From: a virus
Length of the DNA: 64,000 nucleotides
Direction: 5' to 3' (one strand)
IMG/VR virus record: IMGVR_UViG_3300007513_000013
Span: 54,472 to 118,471 of that record
Position 1 is the first letter of the stretch; every line of letters begins with the position of its first letter. Below, piece after piece: positions 1,724-13,506 of the stretch. Both the position numbers and the translations under genes were made by a program. Under the pieces are notes generated by a model. The model was not told the DNA's origin. It saw nothing but the letters and a program-made list of their open reading frames with translations, and ran no database searches.

Positions 1724-3658
1724 ATGCAGCATATGCCCTATAAGAACCTTGCAAGAATTATATTAGAAGAGTATTATAAGCTTATAAGCGAGTCAAAGGG
1801 CAAACTACCATCGACTATAAGCAAAATAGGTAAACCGGTTCGTATACCTACGCCTAGGCTTCCAACTATTAGGCCTGGTTTGTTAAACCTCGGAAAAACC
1901 AGCAAAATAGGACAGACTGGTCATGTTCCGGATGACGTGGGAGCGCCGCTCGAAGGTGAATTTACATATAGACCTTATGATCTTGAAGCGGCGCCGGTAA
2001 AAGAATTGACGCCTGCTGTTGGCGCGCCGCATGTAGAACCACATGGCCAGAACGTGCAGTATTTAGGGGTGCGCGAGGCTCCGGGTGAACCTGTAGATTA
2101 TAGCGCGCTAAGAACGGAACTTGGTGGCATGCTGGCGCCACATTTTCGAAAAGAACCTGTAAATCCACAAAACTATAGTAGGGTGGCAATGCCGGGAGAC
2201 GAAGGAAATTTAACGGTTCGGCCATCATATGAACAATTTGAAGAACTAGCACCAAGTGGTTTGCGCGATGTAATAAAAAGCATCACAGCGGATGTAAGGG
2301 CGGGGGTTATTACTCCACACGATGCTGCTAGCTTTGTAATCGAGTATTATCCCCGTGAAGCAATGCAATGGCACACAAGACGAGGATATCTTGCGGATGT
2401 AGAAAAAGCAGTTAAAGCAAAGATAAAAAGCATCGATCTTTACCCTAGTGCTGAAAAAGTTGCGTTAGAAAAGTTAAGATTGAAAGCTGCAGAAGCTTTT
2501 GAAGCAAACAGACCGGTGGGAGTTGCAAGCACCGGAAGGCTTGATTTATCAGGTGGTTCAACCATGGAAATACTAGCTCAAGAAAAGGCAGTTATAGACA
2601 GCATTGCTCCAAGCTTGGCGCGCCAGTATTATGGTAAGGATTATGGTAATTTAACACCTGGAGAAAGAGCGACTGTTCAGGGTATTAGTAAAAACACGCT
2701 TGATAGTATAAAAAATACGCCCCCAGCGCAACTTCGTAAAAATATTGCAAATTTGGAGGCGCGCCAAGGCCAACAGAACCCATGGGAAAAGGCTGGAGTC
2801 TCGAAAAAGCTATGGGACGAAGATGTTGCTGCGAGATGGGGACAATTAATTGATGAAGTACACCCAATGGTAGTAGATTATTATGTCGACGGAATTCGCA
2901 GTGGAAAAATTACGGGGCGCGCCCTACAACTTGCGCGTGGAACATGGATGAAAGATCCTTTTTATCGCGCAATTGTAAACAAACTGGAGGAACCCTCGCT
3001 TATCATCACTGATCATACCAAAGAACCTGCGATGACCGTTCGAAGGGACTTTAGCGAAGATCCGCGGGGCGTAACGGTTGTTGAACCCACAAAAACACAC
3101 GAGGATTACGCACCCGGGATGTCTCTTGAAGATTTTAAAGGCGTTGAGGCGCCGAGTAATTCGGAATTGGCGTGGGCTCGTCACAGGGCACATACGCAAA
3201 GGGGCCATGAGGATACAGGCCAACTCATTCCCGGAAGAACATATGGGATTCAAGCTTATGAGAGAGCGGTGAGCGAGATAGGGCGTCTAGGCATGCCTTT
3301 AACTCCCGGAGAAATAAGAGAATTGGCAACTAACAGCCCTACAGCATTGCGTGTATATCGCGACATTTTAAATTTGGGATGGGATGAGCACATTGCGCCC
3401 GGCCTCAGAACGCCACGAGTGCGCGTTCCGGAGCGTGGGTTCGATTGGGACACACACTTACAAGACGTGGAACGGGAGATACAAAGGTTTGGGTATTCTC
3501 GTTCGGCTGCAGATGTATGGGGTGAAAATCCACGTGGTGGTCTAACAGTTGTTGATGAGACACCGCCAAGAAGAAGAGGTCGCATGACAGAATTTGACGA
3601 AGCTAAAAAAATAGTACAGAAAGAATACCAAAAGTTATTGTTGGAAATCAAGAAATGA
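1724..3658 (+). CDS. Large putative internal virion protein, 644 aa
   Basis: I do not recognise a family. The N-terminus (ARIILEEYYKLISES) is an amphipathic helix ending I-S-E-S, and the C-terminus (KKIVQKEYQKLLLEIKK) is a second helix of the same style. Both resemble capsid-targeting/prohead-protease signals of T4 internal proteins. Residues 23-86 are clearly related to residues 12-72 of the next protein (shared KLPST.SKIGKP, LP.IRP and APLEGEF.Y.PYD), so the two genes are partial paralogues. The middle is polar, with Pro/Gly-rich linkers. GGAG at 1718 is only 2 nt from ATG 1724 but 11 nt from the in-frame ATG 1733, which may be the true start. The TGA overlaps the next ATG by 4 bp. Four GGCGCGCC palindromes fall in this gene. 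Confidence 0.65.
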   Translation: MQHMPYKNLARIILEEYYKLISESKGKLPSTISKIGKPVRIPTPRLPTIRPGLLNLGKTSKIGQTGHVPDDVGAPLEGEFTYRPYDLEAAPVKELTPAVGAPHVEPHGQNVQYLGVREAPGEPVDYSALRTELGGMLAPHFRKEPVNPQNYSRVAMPGDEGNLTVRPSYEQFEELAPSGLRDVIKSITADVRAGVITPHDAASFVIEYYPREAMQWHTRRGYLADVEKAVKAKIKSIDLYPSAEKVALEKLRLKAAEAFEANRPVGVASTGRLDLSGGSTMEILAQEKAVIDSIAPSLARQYYGKDYGNLTPGERATVQGISKNTLDSIKNTPPAQLRKNIANLEARQGQQNPWEKAGVSKKLWDEDVAARWGQLIDEVHPMVVDYYVDGIRSGKITGRALQLARGTWMKDPFYRAIVNKLEEPSLIITDHTKEPAMTVRRDFSEDPRGVTVVEPTKTHEDYAPGMSLEDFKGVEAPSNSELAWARHRAHTQRGHEDTGQLIPGRTYGIQAYERAVSEIGRLGMPLTPGEIRELATNSPTALRVYRDILNLGWDEHIAPGLRTPRVRVPERGFDWDTHLQDVEREIQRFGYSRSAADVWGENPRGGLTVVDETPPRRRGRMTEFDEAKKIVQKEYQKLLLEIKK

Positions 3659-6600
3659 AAAAAAAGAAAATCACCATCAAGATGAACGAATCAAAAAGCA
3701 AATTACCATCAACTTTAAGTAAAATAGGCAAACCTAGACCACCAGGGCCATCGCTTAAGCTACCAGTTATTAGGCCTGATTTATTAAAAATTGGCAGCCC
3801 CACTATTTCAAACACTCCACGAGCAGTAGATGCGCCACTTGAGGGTGAATTTGTATATAAACCTTATGATCCTGATGTATTAAAACCAGAGGTGCATTTG
3901 ATGCCGAAGCCGCCGGAGACACCTGATCTTGCGCGCGGGAAGCAGCCTGATTACGATTGGCTGGAAAGCGAGGTTACACCTGCGGCACCAGTAGAAACTC
4001 CAGTTATAGAGCCGTGGGAGTCGCCATTACGTTTAGACGACCGACAGCCATTAATGGCAGCCAGGGAAGAAGAAAAGCTGGTTAATGGTTTGAAAAATTT
4101 TCTTGCGAAAGAATACTCAAGCGGCCGGTATAAGGAAAAATGGTTAGATGCCGGGGTACCAGAAAAAGTGTACGATGAGCTTGTTTTGCCGCGCGTAATA
4201 AAAAAAATCAACGCCACGCCAATAATTATTTCAAGTCAAACACCTGATGGGCTTAACCCAGAAATATGGGAGAGGGCTGGTGGCGTATATGCCCCGCCGG
4301 GTGCAACTGGGACACCATGGGGGAGCGTACAAATAAGAACACCATCAGATATAGCAAAATATTCCACCGGAGGCATGTCGACCTTGGGAACACTGGCTCA
4401 TGAAGTTGGCCATGGTTTTTCTTATGATCCATATTTGGTTGCAATTTACAACAAATTCAGAAGTGCTCCTAATCCTGCGCAAGAGTTCCTAGCAAACAAA
4501 GCATTAGTTAGGAGCGGCATACCGGCTGAAATTATTCCGTATCTCAAATCGCACGGCTTAAGTGCAGCGCAGCAAGGTCTTTATCGTTACTACCCTCCGG
4601 AGCATGCGCAATCCATTTATATACCAACTGCTACACTGGCTCAAATGCAGGCTTATGAGCTAGATAGTTTACTTGATCTTGGTCAGCATGGCGGCCAGAT
4701 TGGAGACCGTCTAACACCTGGAGAATTGCTGGGTTATAAATGGGCGCAAAATTTTAAAAAATATCGTGCTGGAGACACTTCTCCAGAAGTGAAGGAAGCT
4801 GCTCTTCAGGAATATAAATGGCGAAGCAATATAGAGGAAATATATGCAGATGTAAAAGCAGTTGATGCTATTTTAAAGCGCCCAATGACAGGGAATGATA
4901 TTAGAGAAACTTGTATGGGAGTTCGTACTGTTGGTTCGGCTGCAATAAATGCTGTCCCTTCGTTTAGGGATTTTTTAAATTGCAAACACCCTGAAAAGGC
5001 TGCTTCTATATTCAACAAAATAGTCCAAATCGGCATTGCTGGTACTGGTGCTGCAGCTGTTGGTGCTTCCGAGGGAGATGGATCACAAAGCTTAAAAGAA
5101 GATACACAAAATAAAATAAACAAAATTATTTCTGAAGAAATTGAGAAAATGTTGTTAGAGGCACCTGTGATACCCGCTTCTTTTGCCGATTATTTAGATA
5201 CACCGCATGCAGCTGCTCTTCGAAGAAAAATGGACTTCTTAGGTTCAAAACATTCTCTCCCCTACCCTCAAAGCATGGACGTACGCCCGAAGGAAGAAAT
5301 CGGTGGTGGTTATACAGACGAATTTGGCTTGAAGCATCAAAAAGGTTCACAGCGCGTGACGCCCGGAGAGCAACTTAAGCACGAAATTGCAATGGGCGGC
5401 ATGAACTGGAAACAAGGTGTCCCGGGATATTATTTACCATGGGGCGGCCCTAAAGATCCTAAAGATCCCCGCGGGGCGCCAAGAGGTTGGATATATCAAG
5501 GGCCCGGAACACGAGAAGGTGGGGGTTCCACACCGGTTCCTCCGCAAAGAATGGGCGGCTCTAGTGCTCTAAAAAAAGATCCGAGTGGTTATTTTCAAAG
5601 ATTTGGAAAGGGCAAACGAACTTGGTCTGGTGTGCCAAGAGGAAAAAATAAAGGACTGAGATATGGCTACATTCCCGGCTCAGAATTAAAGGCGAAAGTG
5701 GACGAATACACCAAAACGAGAAACATACACAAAGATCTAGAAGACGAAACGTGGCAAAATTACAGAGGCCGCTCAAGTTTTTTCAGTGAAGATTCCGGAG
5801 ATTTAGATGGTCCGATTGTTCGCTCATATCAAGATCCAAAAACAGGCAAGTGGCATCAAACCACAATTGTACCGATGGCAGATCCATATAGGCAGGGACC
5901 GGATCCCAGTAAAGAGGGAAAGTCATCATGGTTAGATCTGTTTACTGGTGGCGGATCTGGTGTGGGATGGACTGGCATGCCACACACTGGTCCAAGCGCA
6001 TCGCGGCAGCTAGAATTAAACAAAGAAAGAATGCGTCGGTGTGCAAATGATCCTAAATGTCTTGATAAATTAAAATCAAAATGGGAAAAATCTAAATATT
6101 TCCCTGGAGCAACAGAAGGGTTCGGAAATCTTCCTCTCATGTGGCCTGGATGGGAACAACTTACAGATTATTGGACCGGAATACAGTCGCCCGGAACGCA
6201 TCGTGCTGCCCTACCAGATGAAAGCAGTTATCTACGACATTTGGGTGTACCCAAGAAAGCTACACAAAAGGTTTTTAATAAAAAAGATTGGCATTATTTA
6301 AACGACAGAGAGAAAGAGGTCGCTAGTTTTAACTATTGGGAGCGCAAAGAGAATAAAGATAGAATTCCTGAACTTTTGAAAAAACAAGAATCTGGTGATC
6401 TTACCGATAGAGAAAGACTGGAACTAAAAGGGTTAACGTATGTAAAGGAGTTTAGTAAAATCGCAGACAAATACAAAAAAGCGATGGGCCCGGGCTATGA
6501 ATATTCTAACCCTGCATATGCAGGTGACGTTCCTTATCAGTTTAATCTTTTCACAGATCCTATAGAAGTAACTCCAGCCGGTATACCGGCCATGCTTTGG

Positions 6601-8643
6601 AGAGGGCTAGCCAAGGGAGGCTTACGGAATATGTACAGATCATTGAAAAGTGGACAGCCTATGCCAACTGGTTTAGGTGGCGAAATTACCCCAAGGCTGG
6701 CTCATTGGTCAGAATCTCCGGTGTTGGCGAGGCTAGCTCCAAAAACAATAGACGCGGCGCAGTCTGCAGAGCTAATGCGCCAGGCGAAAGCCGCAACTGA
6801 TCCTACGCAGTTGGCCAAAGGAGCAGTAGTTGGGCCCGGGGCACTTCCGGGTGGTGAGCAAATAATACGTCCATATGAAATACCAACGCCCAAGGGGCCA
6901 AAGCCGTTTGAGCCGGTAAGAGTCGACGTAGAAAAAAGCGAAGCCTTTAAACACATTCATCAACAAGTTAAGGCTTTAAAAGATTGGCATCAAGCTAATT
7001 TTGGTGCAAGGAATTCGGTCGAAATTGAAAATATCAAAAAAGGAATAACACAACAAGCGGTAACTGGTAGGCTTTATGACCTAGAAGACCTCAAACATAT
7101 AATCATCGATCTTAAAACTAGTGGCGGTTGGGCAAGAAATCCATTTGCGGAGCTTTCACAAATAAAATATGATCCTAGGTTACTTGAAGAATCCTTAGAC
7201 AGCTTGAAAAACGTTGTTCTAGGAAAATTACAGAGTTTATTAAACGAAGACAAAGATATAGTTCTGGAAGAAATAAAGCCGCCCAAGCCCTACAAACCCA
7301 AGACTGTCAATTATAAATTTTCGTTTGGAAGAATTGGAGAGGAGCCTTTAGAAGAGCGTGATGGCGACAAACTTCATTATGGAGCATCGATGAATAAGCC
7401 TGTTTTGGCTTTTATCAATCTTGTTCTGGCCAAAAGAAAAGTCAAGCAACAGCAAACAGGAAAACCAATTAGAGCGCTAACTGATAAAGAGCTTTCAGAT
7501 TTGATTACATATACAAATTACAAAGGTGGCTCAAATAAGGTTAATAGAGCTTTAAGCAATCTTCGTTATAATCCAAAAAATCCAAAAAACGATAGAGATT
7601 ACTATAAAAAACTCAGCAAACAAGTAGGAATAACACAAGAACAAACACGAGAAATGTTAAAAGAACTTGAAATTGATAATGTAATTGGTGGCGTTCGATG
7701 GGGTGGGGCGAACAACAGGCAATCGCCGCGGGGTTATAGCCAATTCATGTCTAAAATGCTACAATATAAGTCCAATCCGGATTCTGAATTTCATGATGAG
7801 GCCACTAAAGTATTATATTATATGCAACACCGGCATGACAAGAGGAATACTGGTGCAAAAGGTTTAAAAAAATATTTAAATAAAAGACTAGAGAAAGAAG
7901 GGTATGGCAAAGATGCCATACAAACAATATATGGAAAAGGCGGATATGTAAAGGGTACCCTAAACTACTCCATCGTTATAAATGATAAATATGTCCTATC
8001 TTTGTATACAAAGTCTAAAAAACCTAAAGCATCTTCATATAAAATGAGACCAGACTTACATAAGATATCGGCTGATATTATCTTACGTAACCTCGATCCA
8101 GAAGAGTTAGGTGTTGGTGGTTATGATCGATTAAAACAGGACACGGAAATAGAAGGCTGGAATCAAAGAGAGATGGATAGAGTAGAGAAACTAGCTACTT
8201 GGGATGTTATTTCACCAGAGGACATGATGTCTGCACAAAAAATTGATGCACTAGTACCTCAAGAGGTGGACAAAGCAGTTGACCTAGATAGAGCAGAAGA
8301 GGAGCCAGATCTGCCATTGAGCAAAGAAAGACTAAATGAAGAAAAGCAACATATTGCGGTTGATATTGTACTAAAGTATAATAACGACTTTTCATTCTAT
8401 GGCTATGTGTTAAATCAAATTAGAGCAATTGATGGAATTACAATTGCAAAGGCGGATGAAGCTGGTGTTGTAGATGTTTCGCCCGAACGTCAACAAATTT
8501 TATTGCACCTTAAGTTTATGCCAATTGGCTCACTTTCACGTTATTTTTGGTATCTAAAAAATGAGCTAAAGAAGATACAGGATGCCAGTGGCGACAAGAT
8601 CGACAGTGTACAAATTCGCGGAATCCCACGACAAATAGATTAA
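3655..8643 (+). CDS. Giant multidomain protein: HExxH metalloprotease plus beta-lactamase-like serine hydrolase
   Basis: The 1662-aa protein has several parts. Residues 12-72 repeat the N-terminal module of the preceding protein. A zinc-metalloprotease motif HEVGH is at 249-253, with a possible third ligand in EEIYAD near 392-397. A hydrophobic helix leads to a helix ending M-L-L-E-A at 499-503. A long Gly/Pro/Trp-rich region follows. A second LxE helix (SLLNED, 1194-1199) precedes a class-A beta-lactamase/D,D-peptidase-like domain with SxxK as S1245-MN-K1248, YTN at 1286-1288 and KGG at 1428-1430 in place of KTG. The last 100 residues look like a small alpha/beta domain. Peptidoglycan or host proteins are plausible targets; both activities are inferred from motifs. 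ATG overlaps the upstream TGA. Confidence 0.7.
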   Translation: MKKKKITIKMNESKSKLPSTLSKIGKPRPPGPSLKLPVIRPDLLKIGSPTISNTPRAVDAPLEGEFVYKPYDPDVLKPEVHLMPKPPETPDLARGKQPDYDWLESEVTPAAPVETPVIEPWESPLRLDDRQPLMAAREEEKLVNGLKNFLAKEYSSGRYKEKWLDAGVPEKVYDELVLPRVIKKINATPIIISSQTPDGLNPEIWERAGGVYAPPGATGTPWGSVQIRTPSDIAKYSTGGMSTLGTLAHEVGHGFSYDPYLVAIYNKFRSAPNPAQEFLANKALVRSGIPAEIIPYLKSHGLSAAQQGLYRYYPPEHAQSIYIPTATLAQMQAYELDSLLDLGQHGGQIGDRLTPGELLGYKWAQNFKKYRAGDTSPEVKEAALQEYKWRSNIEEIYADVKAVDAILKRPMTGNDIRETCMGVRTVGSAAINAVPSFRDFLNCKHPEKAASIFNKIVQIGIAGTGAAAVGASEGDGSQSLKEDTQNKINKIISEEIEKMLLEAPVIPASFADYLDTPHAAALRRKMDFLGSKHSLPYPQSMDVRPKEEIGGGYTDEFGLKHQKGSQRVTPGEQLKHEIAMGGMNWKQGVPGYYLPWGGPKDPKDPRGAPRGWIYQGPGTREGGGSTPVPPQRMGGSSALKKDPSGYFQRFGKGKRTWSGVPRGKNKGLRYGYIPGSELKAKVDEYTKTRNIHKDLEDETWQNYRGRSSFFSEDSGDLDGPIVRSYQDPKTGKWHQTTIVPMADPYRQGPDPSKEGKSSWLDLFTGGGSGVGWTGMPHTGPSASRQLELNKERMRRCANDPKCLDKLKSKWEKSKYFPGATEGFGNLPLMWPGWEQLTDYWTGIQSPGTHRAALPDESSYLRHLGVPKKATQKVFNKKDWHYLNDREKEVASFNYWERKENKDRIPELLKKQESGDLTDRERLELKGLTYVKEFSKIADKYKKAMGPGYEYSNPAYAGDVPYQFNLFTDPIEVTPAGIPAMLWRGLAKGGLRNMYRSLKSGQPMPTGLGGEITPRLAHWSESPVLARLAPKTIDAAQSAELMRQAKAATDPTQLAKGAVVGPGALPGGEQIIRPYEIPTPKGPKPFEPVRVDVEKSEAFKHIHQQVKALKDWHQANFGARNSVEIENIKKGITQQAVTGRLYDLEDLKHIIIDLKTSGGWARNPFAELSQIKYDPRLLEESLDSLKNVVLGKLQSLLNEDKDIVLEEIKPPKPYKPKTVNYKFSFGRIGEEPLEERDGDKLHYGASMNKPVLAFINLVLAKRKVKQQQTGKPIRALTDKELSDLITYTNYKGGSNKVNRALSNLRYNPKNPKNDRDYYKKLSKQVGITQEQTREMLKELEIDNVIGGVRWGGANNRQSPRGYSQFMSKMLQYKSNPDSEFHDEATKVLYYMQHRHDKRNTGAKGLKKYLNKRLEKEGYGKDAIQTIYGKGGYVKGTLNYSIVINDKYVLSLYTKSKKPKASSYKMRPDLHKISADIILRNLDPEELGVGGYDRLKQDTEIEGWNQREMDRVEKLATWDVISPEDMMSAQKIDALVPQEVDKAVDLDRAEEEPDLPLSKERLNEEKQHIAVDIVLKYNNDFSFYGYVLNQIRAIDGITIAKADEAGVVDVSPERQQILLHLKFMPIGSLSRYFWYLKNELKKIQDASGDKIDSVQIRGIPRQID

Positions 8644-8669
8644 TTATTTTTATAAACTAAAGAAAACGC

Positions 8670-8697
8670 TTGTTTTTTTGTTAAGTTGTGTTATACT
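8670..8697 (+). promoter_or_regulatory. sigma70-like promoter for the lipoprotein gene
   Basis: TTGTTT at 8670-8675 and TATACT at 8692-8697 are separated by 16 bp and sit just upstream of the lipoprotein start. The match suggests transcription by host RNA polymerase independent of the upstream operon. Confidence 0.5.
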
Positions 8698-8718
8698 TAT
8701 ATATAGAGGGCTTGTGCG

Positions 8719-10863
8719 TTGTTTATTAAAAAGCTACTTTCCTTAATACTTTGTTTCTTTATAATTTTATTTTTTATCGTTTCATGTACAGATGAACAAG
8801 GAGGGGGCAGTGGGAAAAATGATGAAGATTTATATGCGTACCCCGAAATTTCTACAAAAGATACTTCTGAAGATTCTGAGGATGTATCTGAATCTGAAGA
8901 CGCGACTGAAGAAGTAGAAGAAGATACCTACTCTGTTTGGACCGATCCTTGTGTTGACTGCGCTTGGTATTTTTGTGGCAACCTAGATGTCATATGGCAA
9001 AAACAAATTTGTATCAATAACTGTGATGATCCCCCTACAATTGTTTTTGAAGGTGAGTGCGAAGAGCACTTAGAATGCAATCCCGCACAACTAATTTTAG
9101 AAGCAAACATTCCATGCACAACAGAAGATGGATATCCAGGCACAAAAGACAAGCTTTGCAACAAAGGGCAAATACAATATACAGACTGTAAATCAAGCTG
9201 CTCAGAGGAGATCTGTGACCTTTTAGACAACGATTGTGATGGTGACATCGATGAAGGCGTAAAGAACGCTTGTGGAGAGTGTGGGGACGTCCCAGAGGAG
9301 GTTTGTGACTTCATAGATAATGATTGTGATGGCGTAATTGACAATGGTGTCGCAAATGCGTGTGGTGGATGTGGAAAAGAACCAGAAGAGATATGTAATG
9401 GAATAGACGATAATTGTGATGGTGAAATTGATGAAGGTCAATTAAATGCGTGTGGAAAATGTGGACCAGTTGATGATGAAATTTGTGATGGTATTGATAA
9501 TGATTGCAACGGATTGATTGATGAAGATTTGATAGGAAAGTGTTCTACAGACTGTGAAGAAAATTTAAAATATTGTGTAGGTGGTCAGTGGATATGTACA
9601 GCAAAACAACCGCAACCGGAAGTATGTAATGGATTAGATGATGATTGTGACGGAAAAGCAGATGAAGGCTTAGATTGCTTGTGCACAATACAAGACATTG
9701 GTGTTTTATTTCCATGCCAAGAGGGTCCTTTGGTTTGCGGTGCGGGATATAAGACGTGTGAATGTGTTGATCCCAGCGATCCAACATGTGCCGAACTGCA
9801 GTTAACAGAGTGTTTAGCTGTATGTCATTGGCTTCCACAAACTACTGCACCCGGGACAATTTGCGATAAATATTTAGGTGAAGTAAAGCCAGAAGAATGT
9901 AATAATCATGATGACAACTGTAATCAACAAGTGGATGAAAACTTATTTGCAGGTTGTTATAGTGGGCCGCCAAAAACAATGTATGTTGGAATATGTATAC
10001 CAGGCGAAATGACGTGTTCTGCGGGCAGTTGGGGCAATTATGATGATAACAATCAATTCATTAAAAAACTGTGCTTAGGAGAGGTTACGCCGGAGCCAGA
10101 GGACATATGCAATGGTACAGATACAAATTGCGACGGTAAAATTGATGAAGACAAAGAATTAGAGCCTACAGACATATTGTTTATTGTTGATTTGTCTGGA
10201 TCTATGGTTGAAGAGATTAATGCGGTCATGACTGCTCTTAATAAGTTTGCAGCACACTACAGTGATTCCGATGTAGTAAAATGGGGCTTAGTTTTTACAG
10301 CGGCGCAAGATCCAACATGGAGCGAGCGCGTTGTTTTGCAAACAGACCTAGTTGATTTTCAAACCTTTGTTAACACATTCCAAAACTCTGGCTTTAGTCT
10401 AACCGGAGGGAACGAACAAAATTATGATGCAATTTACCTAGCTATTCATAATTTGGTTGCAGACGCCGATCTTCCTTATAAAATCTCTGATTTACAATGG
10501 GGCTGGGGATCTGTCGAATCAGTACCTCCCAAGGACCAATGGAACATTAGTTGGCGTGATGATGCAAAGCATGTCATAATTTTATTTTCCGACGAAGAAG
10601 GTCAATCTTATTTGACACCGGCACTCACTGAGGCAGATATGGTTAATATGATTAATGCTGCTGATGAGTTGGCTGTATATACTTTCACTTCTCCGATGGT
10701 AATGAGCAGTGGGTGGGGGAATTCTTACGTACCGCTGGCTCAGGCAGGCGTTGGTGGAAAAGTTTATGAATTAACGATGAAGGCCATTGAAATGTATAAC
10801 AGTCTTTTAGAAATTCTAGATGAGACTGCATGTGGAAATAGCGTAAAAAATAATAATCCTTGA
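8719..10863 (+). CDS. Lipoprotein with MopE-type repeats and a von Willebrand factor A domain
   Basis: The 714-aa product starts with a hydrophobic signal peptide and the lipobox IVSC (lipidated Cys23), so it should be anchored in the host envelope. An acidic Asp/Glu/Ser linker (about 29-74) follows. Seven Cys/Asp-rich repeats of the form E.C.G.DN.CDG..DE (PF11617-like, often called MopE repeats) span about 163-478. A VWA domain begins near 485 with a metal-binding DLSGS motif (D491, S493, S495). Start is TTG 8719, 8 nt after AGAGGG. Such architectures are common in surface proteins of deltaproteobacteria-like hosts and rare in phages. It is probably host-derived, possibly changing the cell surface or blocking other phages; function is inference. 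Confidence 0.85.
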   Translation: MFIKKLLSLILCFFIILFFIVSCTDEQGGGSGKNDEDLYAYPEISTKDTSEDSEDVSESEDATEEVEEDTYSVWTDPCVDCAWYFCGNLDVIWQKQICINNCDDPPTIVFEGECEEHLECNPAQLILEANIPCTTEDGYPGTKDKLCNKGQIQYTDCKSSCSEEICDLLDNDCDGDIDEGVKNACGECGDVPEEVCDFIDNDCDGVIDNGVANACGGCGKEPEEICNGIDDNCDGEIDEGQLNACGKCGPVDDEICDGIDNDCNGLIDEDLIGKCSTDCEENLKYCVGGQWICTAKQPQPEVCNGLDDDCDGKADEGLDCLCTIQDIGVLFPCQEGPLVCGAGYKTCECVDPSDPTCAELQLTECLAVCHWLPQTTAPGTICDKYLGEVKPEECNNHDDNCNQQVDENLFAGCYSGPPKTMYVGICIPGEMTCSAGSWGNYDDNNQFIKKLCLGEVTPEPEDICNGTDTNCDGKIDEDKELEPTDILFIVDLSGSMVEEINAVMTALNKFAAHYSDSDVVKWGLVFTAAQDPTWSERVVLQTDLVDFQTFVNTFQNSGFSLTGGNEQNYDAIYLAIHNLVADADLPYKISDLQWGWGSVESVPPKDQWNISWRDDAKHVIILFSDEEGQSYLTPALTEADMVNMINAADELAVYTFTSPMVMSSGWGNSYVPLAQAGVGGKVYELTMKAIEMYNSLLEILDETACGNSVKNNNP
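9205..10152 (+). repeat. Seven degenerate MopE-type repeats inside the lipoprotein gene
   Basis: Seven copies of an 18-residue pattern (for example EEICDLLDNDCDGDIDEG) occur, the first four nearly evenly spaced and the last three separated by Cys-rich inserts. The conserved acidic and Cys residues suggest calcium or metal binding and disulphide pairing outside the cytoplasm. Confidence 0.8.
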
Positions 10864-10896: not shown

Positions 10897-11292
10897 ATGA
10901 AAAACATTAAACTTAATAGCATATTGAAAACATGCGATGATTCTAAAATTGAAACCTACATTAACAACATACCAGAACCTTGGAGTCATAATAAAAAAAT
11001 AGCAGTACTGCTTATAACACTAGCCATATTAAATATTTTTGATGCATTGTGCACGCAACATCTTATTTCTGTGGGTGGAATGAAAGAGTTTAATCCACTT
11101 ATGCTGAGTTTGCTTAAAATGAGCGATGGTATATTTATTTTTGCAAAGCTGTTTGTTGGCTTCTTAGGTATTGGAATTCTATGGCGTTACAGAGAAAATA
11201 TTTTAGTATATCTATTAACAATTCCTCTTGTAATGCTATATACTTTTATTGGGGCAATGCACATAGCTTTGCTTATACGATACTATCAATAA
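10897..11292 (+). CDS. Small membrane protein, DUF5658-like
   Basis: This 131-aa protein has a soluble 28-residue start and then three hydrophobic segments (about 28-52, 76-96 and 103-127). The first segment runs into FDALCTQHLISVGGMKEFNP, which matches the D...T...G..E.NP pattern of DUF5658-type inner-membrane proteins. Function is unknown. It follows the lipoprotein gene by 33 bp and is followed by another small membrane protein, so the three may form an envelope-directed cassette inserted between large virion genes. Confidence 0.7.
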   Translation: MKNIKLNSILKTCDDSKIETYINNIPEPWSHNKKIAVLLITLAILNIFDALCTQHLISVGGMKEFNPLMLSLLKMSDGIFIFAKLFVGFLGIGILWRYRENILVYLLTIPLVMLYTFIGAMHIALLIRYYQ

Positions 11293-11307: not shown

Positions 11308-11574
11308 ATGAAAACTACTATAAAATATGTGGTTGCTAGCGTTTTAGCTTTTGCTATAGGCGCTAGCGGAGCTTATTATGCAACTACACACAAATATGAA
11401 GCCAAGATTGTGCAACATCAAAAGACCATTGATGACGCTGCAGCACAAATTAGTTCTTTTTGTGAAGGACAGAAAGTTGGAGACATAAGGATTACTAGGG
11501 CTCTATGTGGCGATGTTAAAGAATATTGTCTCTGTGTACATCCAGATAAATTTCGCGCAGATTTTCATCAATAA
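11308..11574 (+). CDS. Small signal-anchored protein, 88 aa
   Basis: Residues 5-26 are hydrophobic with small residues (ASVLAFAIGASGAYYA), giving a signal anchor or signal peptide. The remaining 60 residues are polar and contain four Cys (FCEG, LCGD, YCLC). The expected topology is N-in with the C-terminal part in the periplasm. It resembles i-spanins or Rz-like proteins only in layout; no partner or lysis cassette is next to it. No lipobox is present. It begins 15 bp after the DUF5658-like gene. Confidence 0.65.
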   Translation: MKTTIKYVVASVLAFAIGASGAYYATTHKYEAKIVQHQKTIDDAAAQISSFCEGQKVGDIRITRALCGDVKEYCLCVHPDKFRADFHQ

Positions 11575-11634: not shown

Positions 11635-13506
11635 ATGTCGTCCAAAAATGTATATACTCTTTTCAAAACATTGCGTGAGTACCTTAGTGAAGAAACGGTA
11701 CAACTAGATATATCCTTACCAGAAGAAGAAAATGTCGGAGAAATTGAAGCCAAAGAAGCTCGATGGGTCGATAACTTATCTGATAGTGACCCGGGCGTAT
11801 TCAATTTAAAGCTAGTAAAATCACAATTCAAGTCTCCCAAAAAAGATATGCTACAGGAACAGGGTTTACATGGATTTGACTTGCCATGGGCGTGGAAAGA
11901 TAAAATATTAGCACTGGCTCCGCCTGCAGAACCTGTGGATTCAGTTCCGGGCGGCGTGATTCTTCCCGGACCTCAAAAAGCCAAAGAAAATCCACTCAAA
12001 GGCACAGATTTGGAGCACATCCAGCCAGAAGTGACACACCCAAAAGAACTGGCTGGTCAATATATAATAGAGCCTTTCGAAATCACTGCTCGTTCTAAAG
12101 AAGAGCAAGATAAAGCATATAAAGACTCACTTAAACAAGTTTTTTTACCGCCGTCCGGACTGAAAGATTCTTCTGAGACGGGATATACAGCCGGGCGTAA
12201 ATGGAGGCAATATGGAGAGTCGCGAATGGCGCGAATGTTGACTGATGTTGCACAAGAGTGGAAAAATAATCAAGAAGATTTAGTCGACGAAAAGGGAAGG
12301 TGGGGCCCCATTGAATATTGGGATGTGTCCAAAAAGGGAGGGGGCGAGTTTCCACCGCATGTCAGCCACCAATCAGGGAGAGATGTTGATATCGCAACGT
12401 TTCTCAAATCAAAGGCCCGCGGCTCTGCTAATATGGCCACCATTAGTACCGTTGATATGTATAGGATGTATAGGTTGGCTGAAATGTATATTAATTGGTC
12501 AGCGGATAATCCGGAGCCGCACTGGATTGACAAAGAAACAGGACTAGCTAAAAATCCGATGGTGATATTCTGGAATCAAGAATTAATTGATGCAACAAGA
12601 AAATGGGCAGAAAAAAAACACAAAGTGAATGGTGAGTGGGTATACAAAAACAATGTCAGCGAAATGACCAATGATGCAATGTTTGGCACGTGCACAAAAC
12701 GGAATTCTCGGGAGGAGTGCGTAAAGCGCAAAAAAACATCTGATGTTAACAGGGGGCCGCGGACGTTTCGTCATGAACCTGGACATGCAAACCATTATCA
12801 TATACGTACAGACCGAAGTTATGGAAAAAGAAACAAAATAAGATATGCAAACAAAGGTGAAAAACCATCTGTTTATATGCCTCCGCCTGAGCCGGAAGGG
12901 TTTGATCCAAAGGTGCGCATGAAAACTGCAGAGGATGAAGCAAGAGAATGGAAATGGAACGACAAGACACAACAGTGGGAAAATATGTTTGAGGGCGGCG
13001 CGGAGCAGGTTTATAACGTAGGCGGCGGAGGGCGGCCAGATCAAACAGTCCCAGTACCAGTGCCGACGCAAAAACTGTCGACGGTGCCCCCCAGTAATAA
13101 AATTAAAAAAGCGGCAAAAAAGAAGAGGCGGCACCGGGGCGTTTTTAAAAAGGCACCTAGTGGGCCCGAGACTATGAAAAACCTTATTAAGAGTGGGATA
13201 TATGGGCCATTGGATGAGCAGATGGGGGCGCCCATGGATCCTATTCAGCAACAAATTCAAATGTCCGTAATGGCAGCACAAGAACAACTCGGTCCTTTGT
13301 TTGGTCAGTTGCAAGGAATGATTGTGCAAATGCGCACTTTAAACACCCCAGCAGCCAATCAAGAGGTAAAAAAGCAAACTAATAGAATTGAACTAATTAC
13401 TAATGACTTAAACGACGGAGATATTGATGTCATGGCCGCAATTGGTCAATTGGGTAACATTGCAAACGACATGGGCAAGAAAATGCAAAAGTTAACACAA
13501 GGGTAG
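11635..13506 (+). CDS. Putative virion murein endopeptidase, MepA-like (M74 type)
   Basis: The 623-aa protein contains the signature of penicillin-insensitive murein endopeptidases. HxSHQxGRDVD spans residues 242-252, giving zinc ligands H245 and D252, and H387-Y-H389-IR supplies the third ligand. In MepA these bind zinc for cutting D-Ala-mDAP cross-links in the periplasm. E. coli MepA is less than half this length. Here the domain (about 170-400) sits between an N-terminal helix ending YLSEE (16-20), a Pro-rich linker, a basic stretch (KKAAKKKRRHRG) and a C-terminal helical domain preceded by GPLDEQ. The flanking LxE motifs suggest a packaged and processed precursor. Start ATG 11635 follows AGAGG. 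No signal peptide is present, so delivery with the virion would explain access to peptidoglycan. Confidence 0.8.
   Translation: MSSKNVYTLFKTLREYLSEETVQLDISLPEEENVGEIEAKEARWVDNLSDSDPGVFNLKLVKSQFKSPKKDMLQEQGLHGFDLPWAWKDKILALAPPAEPVDSVPGGVILPGPQKAKENPLKGTDLEHIQPEVTHPKELAGQYIIEPFEITARSKEEQDKAYKDSLKQVFLPPSGLKDSSETGYTAGRKWRQYGESRMARMLTDVAQEWKNNQEDLVDEKGRWGPIEYWDVSKKGGGEFPPHVSHQSGRDVDIATFLKSKARGSANMATISTVDMYRMYRLAEMYINWSADNPEPHWIDKETGLAKNPMVIFWNQELIDATRKWAEKKHKVNGEWVYKNNVSEMTNDAMFGTCTKRNSREECVKRKKTSDVNRGPRTFRHEPGHANHYHIRTDRSYGKRNKIRYANKGEKPSVYMPPPEPEGFDPKVRMKTAEDEAREWKWNDKTQQWENMFEGGAEQVYNVGGGGRPDQTVPVPVPTQKLSTVPPSNKIKKAAKKKRRHRGVFKKAPSGPETMKNLIKSGIYGPLDEQMGAPMDPIQQQIQMSVMAAQEQLGPLFGQLQGMIVQMRTLNTPAANQEVKKQTNRIELITNDLNDGDIDVMAAIGQLGNIANDMGKKMQKLTQG

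Follow-up and report, generated by a model that had tools for sequence, protein, structure and literature searches.

Why should a virus of bacteria carry a gene for a large, lipid-anchored protein of the type found on bacterial surfaces? The question is raised by an open reading frame (8719..10863, + strand) in the window, by which we mean the whole 64,000-nucleotide stretch analysed, forming the final 64 kb of a 118,471-bp IMG/VR virus record. The frame opens with a TTG start codon, encodes 714 aa and is preceded, 8 nt 5' of the start, by a ribosome-binding site GAGGG (8706..8710, +); sites of the GAGG or GGGG type occur in many near relatives. A first-pass annotation had read the product as a lipoprotein bearing seven MopE repeats together with a VWA domain whose MIDAS is intact, encoded behind a separate promoter between virion genes. 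The domain reading is borne out in each of its parts, and the remaining claims fared less evenly.

The N-terminus (MFIKKLLSLILCFFIILFFIVSC; 8719..8787, +) combines a positive n-region and a hydrophobic core with a lipobox, I-V-S-C23, followed by Thr at position +2. From these features the protein is very probably a bacterial-type lipoprotein, of the signal peptidase II substrate type. An acidic linker follows (residues 24-70; 8788..8928, +), which is predicted to be disordered, with a pLDDT of about 33-48 over residues 25-71 in an alignment-based model and a D/E content averaging 25% across the 48 residues after the lipobox Cys. Next come a Cys-rich N-terminal domain with an invariant Cys pattern (residues 71-160; 8929..9198, +) and seven MopE repeats with an interspersed Cys-rich segment (residues 166-480; 9214..10158, +), the motifs starting at residues 166, 196, 226, 256, 303, 394 and 464. 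The Pfam model PF11617 finds the same number of stretches as first proposed, seven, at E=2.3e-20 (73 bits against a curated cut-off of 27). The C-terminal VWA domain (residues 481-706; 10159..10836, +) is integrin beta-I-like and carries three MIDAS motifs: D491-L-S-G-S495 (10189..10203, +), E566-QNY-D570 (10414..10428, +) and D625-E626 (10591..10596, +). The VWA match of the window copy lies under the Pfam cut-off (E about 0.007); the structural model is confidently VWA.

The gene is not a one-off, as hundreds of viral contigs carry relatives (184 and 424 related stretches in two IMG/VR scans), which upholds its description as a phage-encoded lipoprotein of bacterial-surface type. The carriers form a group of bacterial viruses, none of them cultured and most of them marine. 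Zero records of the INPHARED phage collection match the window protein, a PHROG search with it gave no family match, NCBIfam had nothing above cut-off for the lipoprotein, PADLOC returned no defence match, and we found nothing on point in the literature on a phage VWA/MopE protein. Within a 46-sequence alignment, where identity to the window copy ranges from 38 to 79%, Cys23, D491, S493, S495, E566, D570, D625, E626 and many stalk Cys are invariant, so that the lipobox Cys and the key residues of all three MIDAS motifs are retained in 46/46 members. PF11617 is likewise matched in 46/46 at E<=0.01, with 5 to 9 motifs per member, and PF00092 (VWA) in 22/46 at the same threshold (best 1.7e-6). 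A hydrophobic stretch ending in Cys is present in 73 of the 74 non-truncated relatives of the first IMG/VR set, and in 44/46 family members position +2 is occupied by S, A, T or G. Ka/Ks is 0.033-0.075 for pairs with measurable Ks, indicating strong purifying selection on the lipoprotein; together with the lipobox statistics, these values place the observation beyond chance. The repeats (0.65) and the MIDAS segments are the best conserved parts of the protein; the signal, the linker (0.19) and the VWA loops at residues 526-540 and 661-675 (0.24) are the least conserved.

The alignment-based model has a mean pLDDT of 80.8, with most VWA blocks above 83, and a low pTM of 0.47, at which the arrangement of the domains is not readable from it. 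Searched against the PDB with Foldseek, it is matched best by integrin beta headpieces (E about 1e-6); VIA-align ranks VWA subunits of TFIIH (Z to 17.6) alongside integrin beta chains (Z 15.7-16.6). Since these two rank together, the overall fold is that of a general VWA domain, and what is specific to integrins is the metal site. The second MIDAS motif is usually Thr, and in integrin beta chains it is Glu followed after three residues by Asp; the window protein has E566 instead of the usual Thr, and then D570, as in integrin beta chains. With a VWA profile, integrin beta-8 was recovered at 2e-4, the match covering the C-terminal half. In BFVD, an unnamed protein of 266 aa (A0A516KYY5) matches best, at 27% identity.

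Upstream of the gene, the separate sigma70-like promoter first proposed stands in part. Directly upstream, a scan with the sigma70 consensus gave no site above threshold, and the best consensus scores in 17 relatives averaged 9.1 against 8.2 in shuffles, so we rejected a consensus sigma70 promoter. A conserved element was found instead: two blocks, roughly AAACATTTGTT and TATAGTTAT with a spacing of some 16 nt, are conserved across 17 aligned near relatives, and in the window they take the form AAACGCTTGTTT-N16-TATACTTATAT (8664..8702, +; TTGTTT and TATACT, with TG ahead of the second hexamer). With its own sequence excluded from the matrix, the element at 8664 still outscored every other place in the 118-kb record, at 19.7 against runners-up of 11.2 (+) and 15.2 (-); the maxima of six shuffles were 9.5-18.7, one of the six reaching 18.7. 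L016 has no strong match to it. Judged by sequence, the two-block element is likely a private promoter of the lipoprotein gene.

The gene is accessory and lies at different loci in different subclades. Ten large viral records that have it encode one full copy each; in one of 284 kb (G288, L078) there is also a second, shorter VWA copy (C1:224791-225510, in a 442-aa frame). When ten records were collected through the DNA polymerase of the window phage, two matched the lipoprotein family and eight did not, so it is not a core gene of the clade. The eight include records of 185 kb and 162 kb, linear records that may be incomplete; this pair retains the neighbouring gene g13510, and no lipoprotein homologue was found in the examined stretch upstream of g13510. 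The neighbourhoods across subclades differ, which indicates that the form of the protein was kept while its neighbours changed, and an accessory gene at different loci probably works independently of any fixed virion partner.

These observations are best explained as a whole by an exported lipoprotein that remodels the surface of the infected cell, an explanation that we put a little short of even. The protein would be made in the infected cell, exported and lipidated, and then sorted to the outer membrane, where it would face outwards; sorting is suggested by the lack of Asp at +2, and exposure by the anchor, the linker and the type of domain. That it is a surface-facing outer-membrane protein we consider probable. 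On its acidic, predicted-disordered linker, a Cys-rich stalk of 5-9 MopE motifs would carry the VWA tip, which, when loaded with metal, would bind an acidic ligand on a surface partner. Attachment to the infected cell would thereby change: a phage receptor may be blocked or masked (superinfection exclusion, or "lytic conversion"), and progeny may be kept from sticking to debris. That the protein acts in the infected cell, and not as part of the particle, is favoured by the accessory distribution, the gene's own upstream element and purifying selection, although records without the gene may be incomplete, which tempers the first of these arguments.

Of the possible benefits, we favour superinfection exclusion as the likeliest main role, although at less than even odds. 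The lipoprotein Llp of phage T5 brings about superinfection exclusion by binding FhuA, and it has been proposed that exclusion lipoproteins aimed at TBDTs are widespread among coliphages (PMC9586334). The exclusion lipoproteins known so far are small, however, and the window protein is about 700 aa; moreover, a Ka/Ks of 0.05 may be lower than one would expect of an exclusion factor that tracks receptors. Even so, the loops at 526-540 and 661-675 are the least conserved parts of the VWA domain.

As the main rival, with the same anatomy but another benefit, the VWA tip may be an adhesin that sticks infected cells to each other, to hosts not yet infected or to particles, bringing released phages into contact with new hosts. 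An integrin beta-I-type MIDAS is a ligand-binding site in the animal counterparts, the repeat stalk and linker suit presentation away from the membrane, and the combination of conserved MIDAS and stalk with some variable VWA loops would fit. However, it is uncertain what a lytic phage would gain from adhesion, and the resemblance to integrins lies in the fold and the metal site, which is no proof of adhesion given that TFIIH subunits score as high. We regard the adhesin as a credible but rather unlikely reading. Its broadest form, a widespread phage family of integrin-like adhesins whose metal-dependent binding of infected bacteria to cells or matrix steers the spread of infection, seems to us unlikely.

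The genes around the lipoprotein gene bear on two further readings. Directly downstream in the window lie a DUF5658 membrane protein (10897..11292, +; PF18902, E=2.5e-14), which is a syntenic partner in near relatives and is found beside or near the lipoprotein gene in several of them, and an 88-aa protein with one N-terminal transmembrane segment (11308..11574, +), a possible partner. A near relative, G283, has the order lipoprotein, small lipoprotein, DUF5658, small lipoprotein, short hydrophobic protein, and in it a 71-aa protein with an N-terminal hydrophobic segment is placed similarly to the 88-aa protein. This row, and the two genes downstream in the window, are what would be expected if the lipoprotein belonged with small lipoproteins, DUF5658 and single-span proteins to an envelope-remodelling module, serving envelope stability or the timing of lysis and not recognition. 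Yet in a distant subclade the lipoprotein gene adjoins a ThyX-like gene (read from its sequence) without such partners, and the endolysin is far away in the record (L165:7312-8166), so that a module of this kind appears quite improbable. In G294, two tandem family lipoproteins stand between the ThyX-like gene and a DNA polymerase (L363:5359-8857), one of them mainly MopE (747 aa) and the other MopE plus VWA (418 aa).

Many genes around the locus share an N-terminus of the FENWRKYLxE type (for example MKKLFENWRGLIKES, VKEWKKFLLKED and FKTLREYLSEE), found at 93-707, 708-1454 and 11635-13506 of the window, at L165:6334-7068 and L167:14041-14499, and in relatives. It resembles the capsid targeting sequence of T4 internal head proteins (PMC3012670), and by analogy the genes that carry it may encode virion-packaged, injected proteins. 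The placement between virion genes is thus plausible as far as several neighbours with this T4-like N-terminus are concerned, but the giant neighbours have no PHROG virion match. That the lipoprotein is itself in or on the particle and aids host attachment gains something from its position among large proteins, several of which have capsid-targeting-like N-termini. We rejected a tail or virion protein: it has a lipoprotein signal peptide and not a head-targeting sequence, it lacks a PHROG match, its distribution is accessory, and in distant phages its relatives lie in non-tail neighbourhoods with non-virion neighbours. The virion reading is accordingly very unlikely.

Other features of these genomes were recorded alongside. 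A second recurring N-terminal motif, MKLTKxxLxQIIxEEL, tops several otherwise unlike phage proteins (L165:558-959, L166:8572-9228, L167:2866-5800, and L362 of G294) and is a possible sorting or packaging tag. Two large neighbours show peptidase features: the product of 11635-13506 has a weak Peptidase_M74 match (E=5.4e-5, under cut-off), and a 1662-aa protein at 3655-8643 of the window contains a HEVGH motif. Adenylosuccinate synthetase-like frames, read as such from sequence (MIADVVLGLQHGDEAKGK...), lie beside or near the locus in L025, L036 and L362, and may have a bearing on purine metabolism or on modified DNA. Among L166:2571-4142 and L165:10336-13767 are the phage's own GroEL (phrog_5725, E=4e-143) and its DNA polymerase, which is only about 30% identical to those of cultured phages.

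Cellular relatives were sought with the alignment among GTDB contigs. The closest among the matches listed are mainly MopE proteins of Myxococcota and Deltaproteobacteria, aligned mostly over the repeats, and most of the cellular matches listed start in the MopE region, after the N-terminal Cys-rich domain. In several cellular ORFs with both domains, the VWA-like motif apparently comes first and MopE after, the reverse of the phage order. Three genomes of Myxococcota or Deltaproteobacteria give 151-307 profile matches each. When a VWA profile was run on 282 genomes of the phylum of G002 (a "Myxococcota bacterium" record), only partial matches were obtained, the best being an 826-aa ORF in G217 with MopE followed by VWA. 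Its contig, L188, has 45% GC and several ORFs that start with motifs like EEWKQFLAES and KWRSFLAEAG; in view of this composition and the capsid-targeting-like N-termini, it probably represents phage DNA that was sorted into the bin, and we rejected L168/G217 as a cellular homologue. Also set aside were the high-identity MAG matches L092 and L138, which have only the MopE repeats in common with the phage family, and L085 and L097, in which repeats but no VWA were seen in the ORFs (L085 is truncated where its contig ends). Neither the GTDB matches listed nor, by VWA profile, the 282 genomes contained a cellular homologue of full length.

Of the deltaproteobacteria-like host first suggested, the predominance of Myxococcota and Deltaproteobacteria among the cellular matches listed survives, while the sole hit with the full architecture lies on a phage-like contig; a Myxococcota-like host is thus hinted at only weakly, binning errors being possible. 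Two viral records, L035 (IMGVR_UViG_2716884848), which encodes the protein, and L342 (IMGVR_UViG_2684622992), which has the same phage polymerase, bear names that resemble IMG genome ids and not metagenome ids. That the gene is a passenger, picked up from a host and without a selected role, is highly improbable in view of Ka/Ks values of 0.03-0.08, the hundreds of viral contigs and the failure to find a full-length cellular version, even though MopE repeats are abundant in Myxococcota and the distribution is accessory.

Remodelling of the infected cell's surface thus remains our preferred reading, by which a virus may change what sticks to the cell it has taken over. Surface-altering phage lipoproteins are already known, but as small proteins; the one described here is large and strongly conserved, combines a stalk of repeats with a metal site of integrin type, and is carried by hundreds of viral contigs, without a cultured relative in INPHARED. 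If the surface location and ligand binding are true, the family would offer a handle on how marine phages influence cell-cell contact or shut out competitors, and on which bacteria such uncultured marine phages infect.

Among known systems, the integrin beta-I domain shares with the window protein the VWA fold and a MIDAS composed of DxSxS, Glu and Asp with Glu-x3-Asp, at a low sequence identity of about 11-19% in the structural matches. The window protein differs in having no hybrid or PSI domains and no alpha partner, and in having a lipid anchor rather than a membrane helix, plus the MopE stalk. A Pfam scan of the 46 members found no hybrid, PSI, EGF or transmembrane feature, with PF00362 weak in three; with a signal peptide and MopE repeats in place of the integrin domains, membership as an integrin beta subunit was rejected, and the likeness remains. 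The MopE proteins of Myxococcota and Deltaproteobacteria have in common with it the repeats and, in some, a VWA-like motif, but in several cellular ORFs with both the motif is ahead of the repeats, and the alignment to the phage family is essentially of repeats only. MopE of Methylococcus shares the PF11617 motif by the name of the Pfam model; MopE* holds copper via two His and kynurenine, ligands that differ from the Asp/Asn-rich PF11617 motif, so copper binding is not to be read from the name (PMC3423442). T5 Llp and T1 Cor are, like the window protein, phage-encoded lipoproteins directed to the host envelope, the size and fold of Llp being unlike those of the window protein. To our knowledge both are small and without VWA or MopE.
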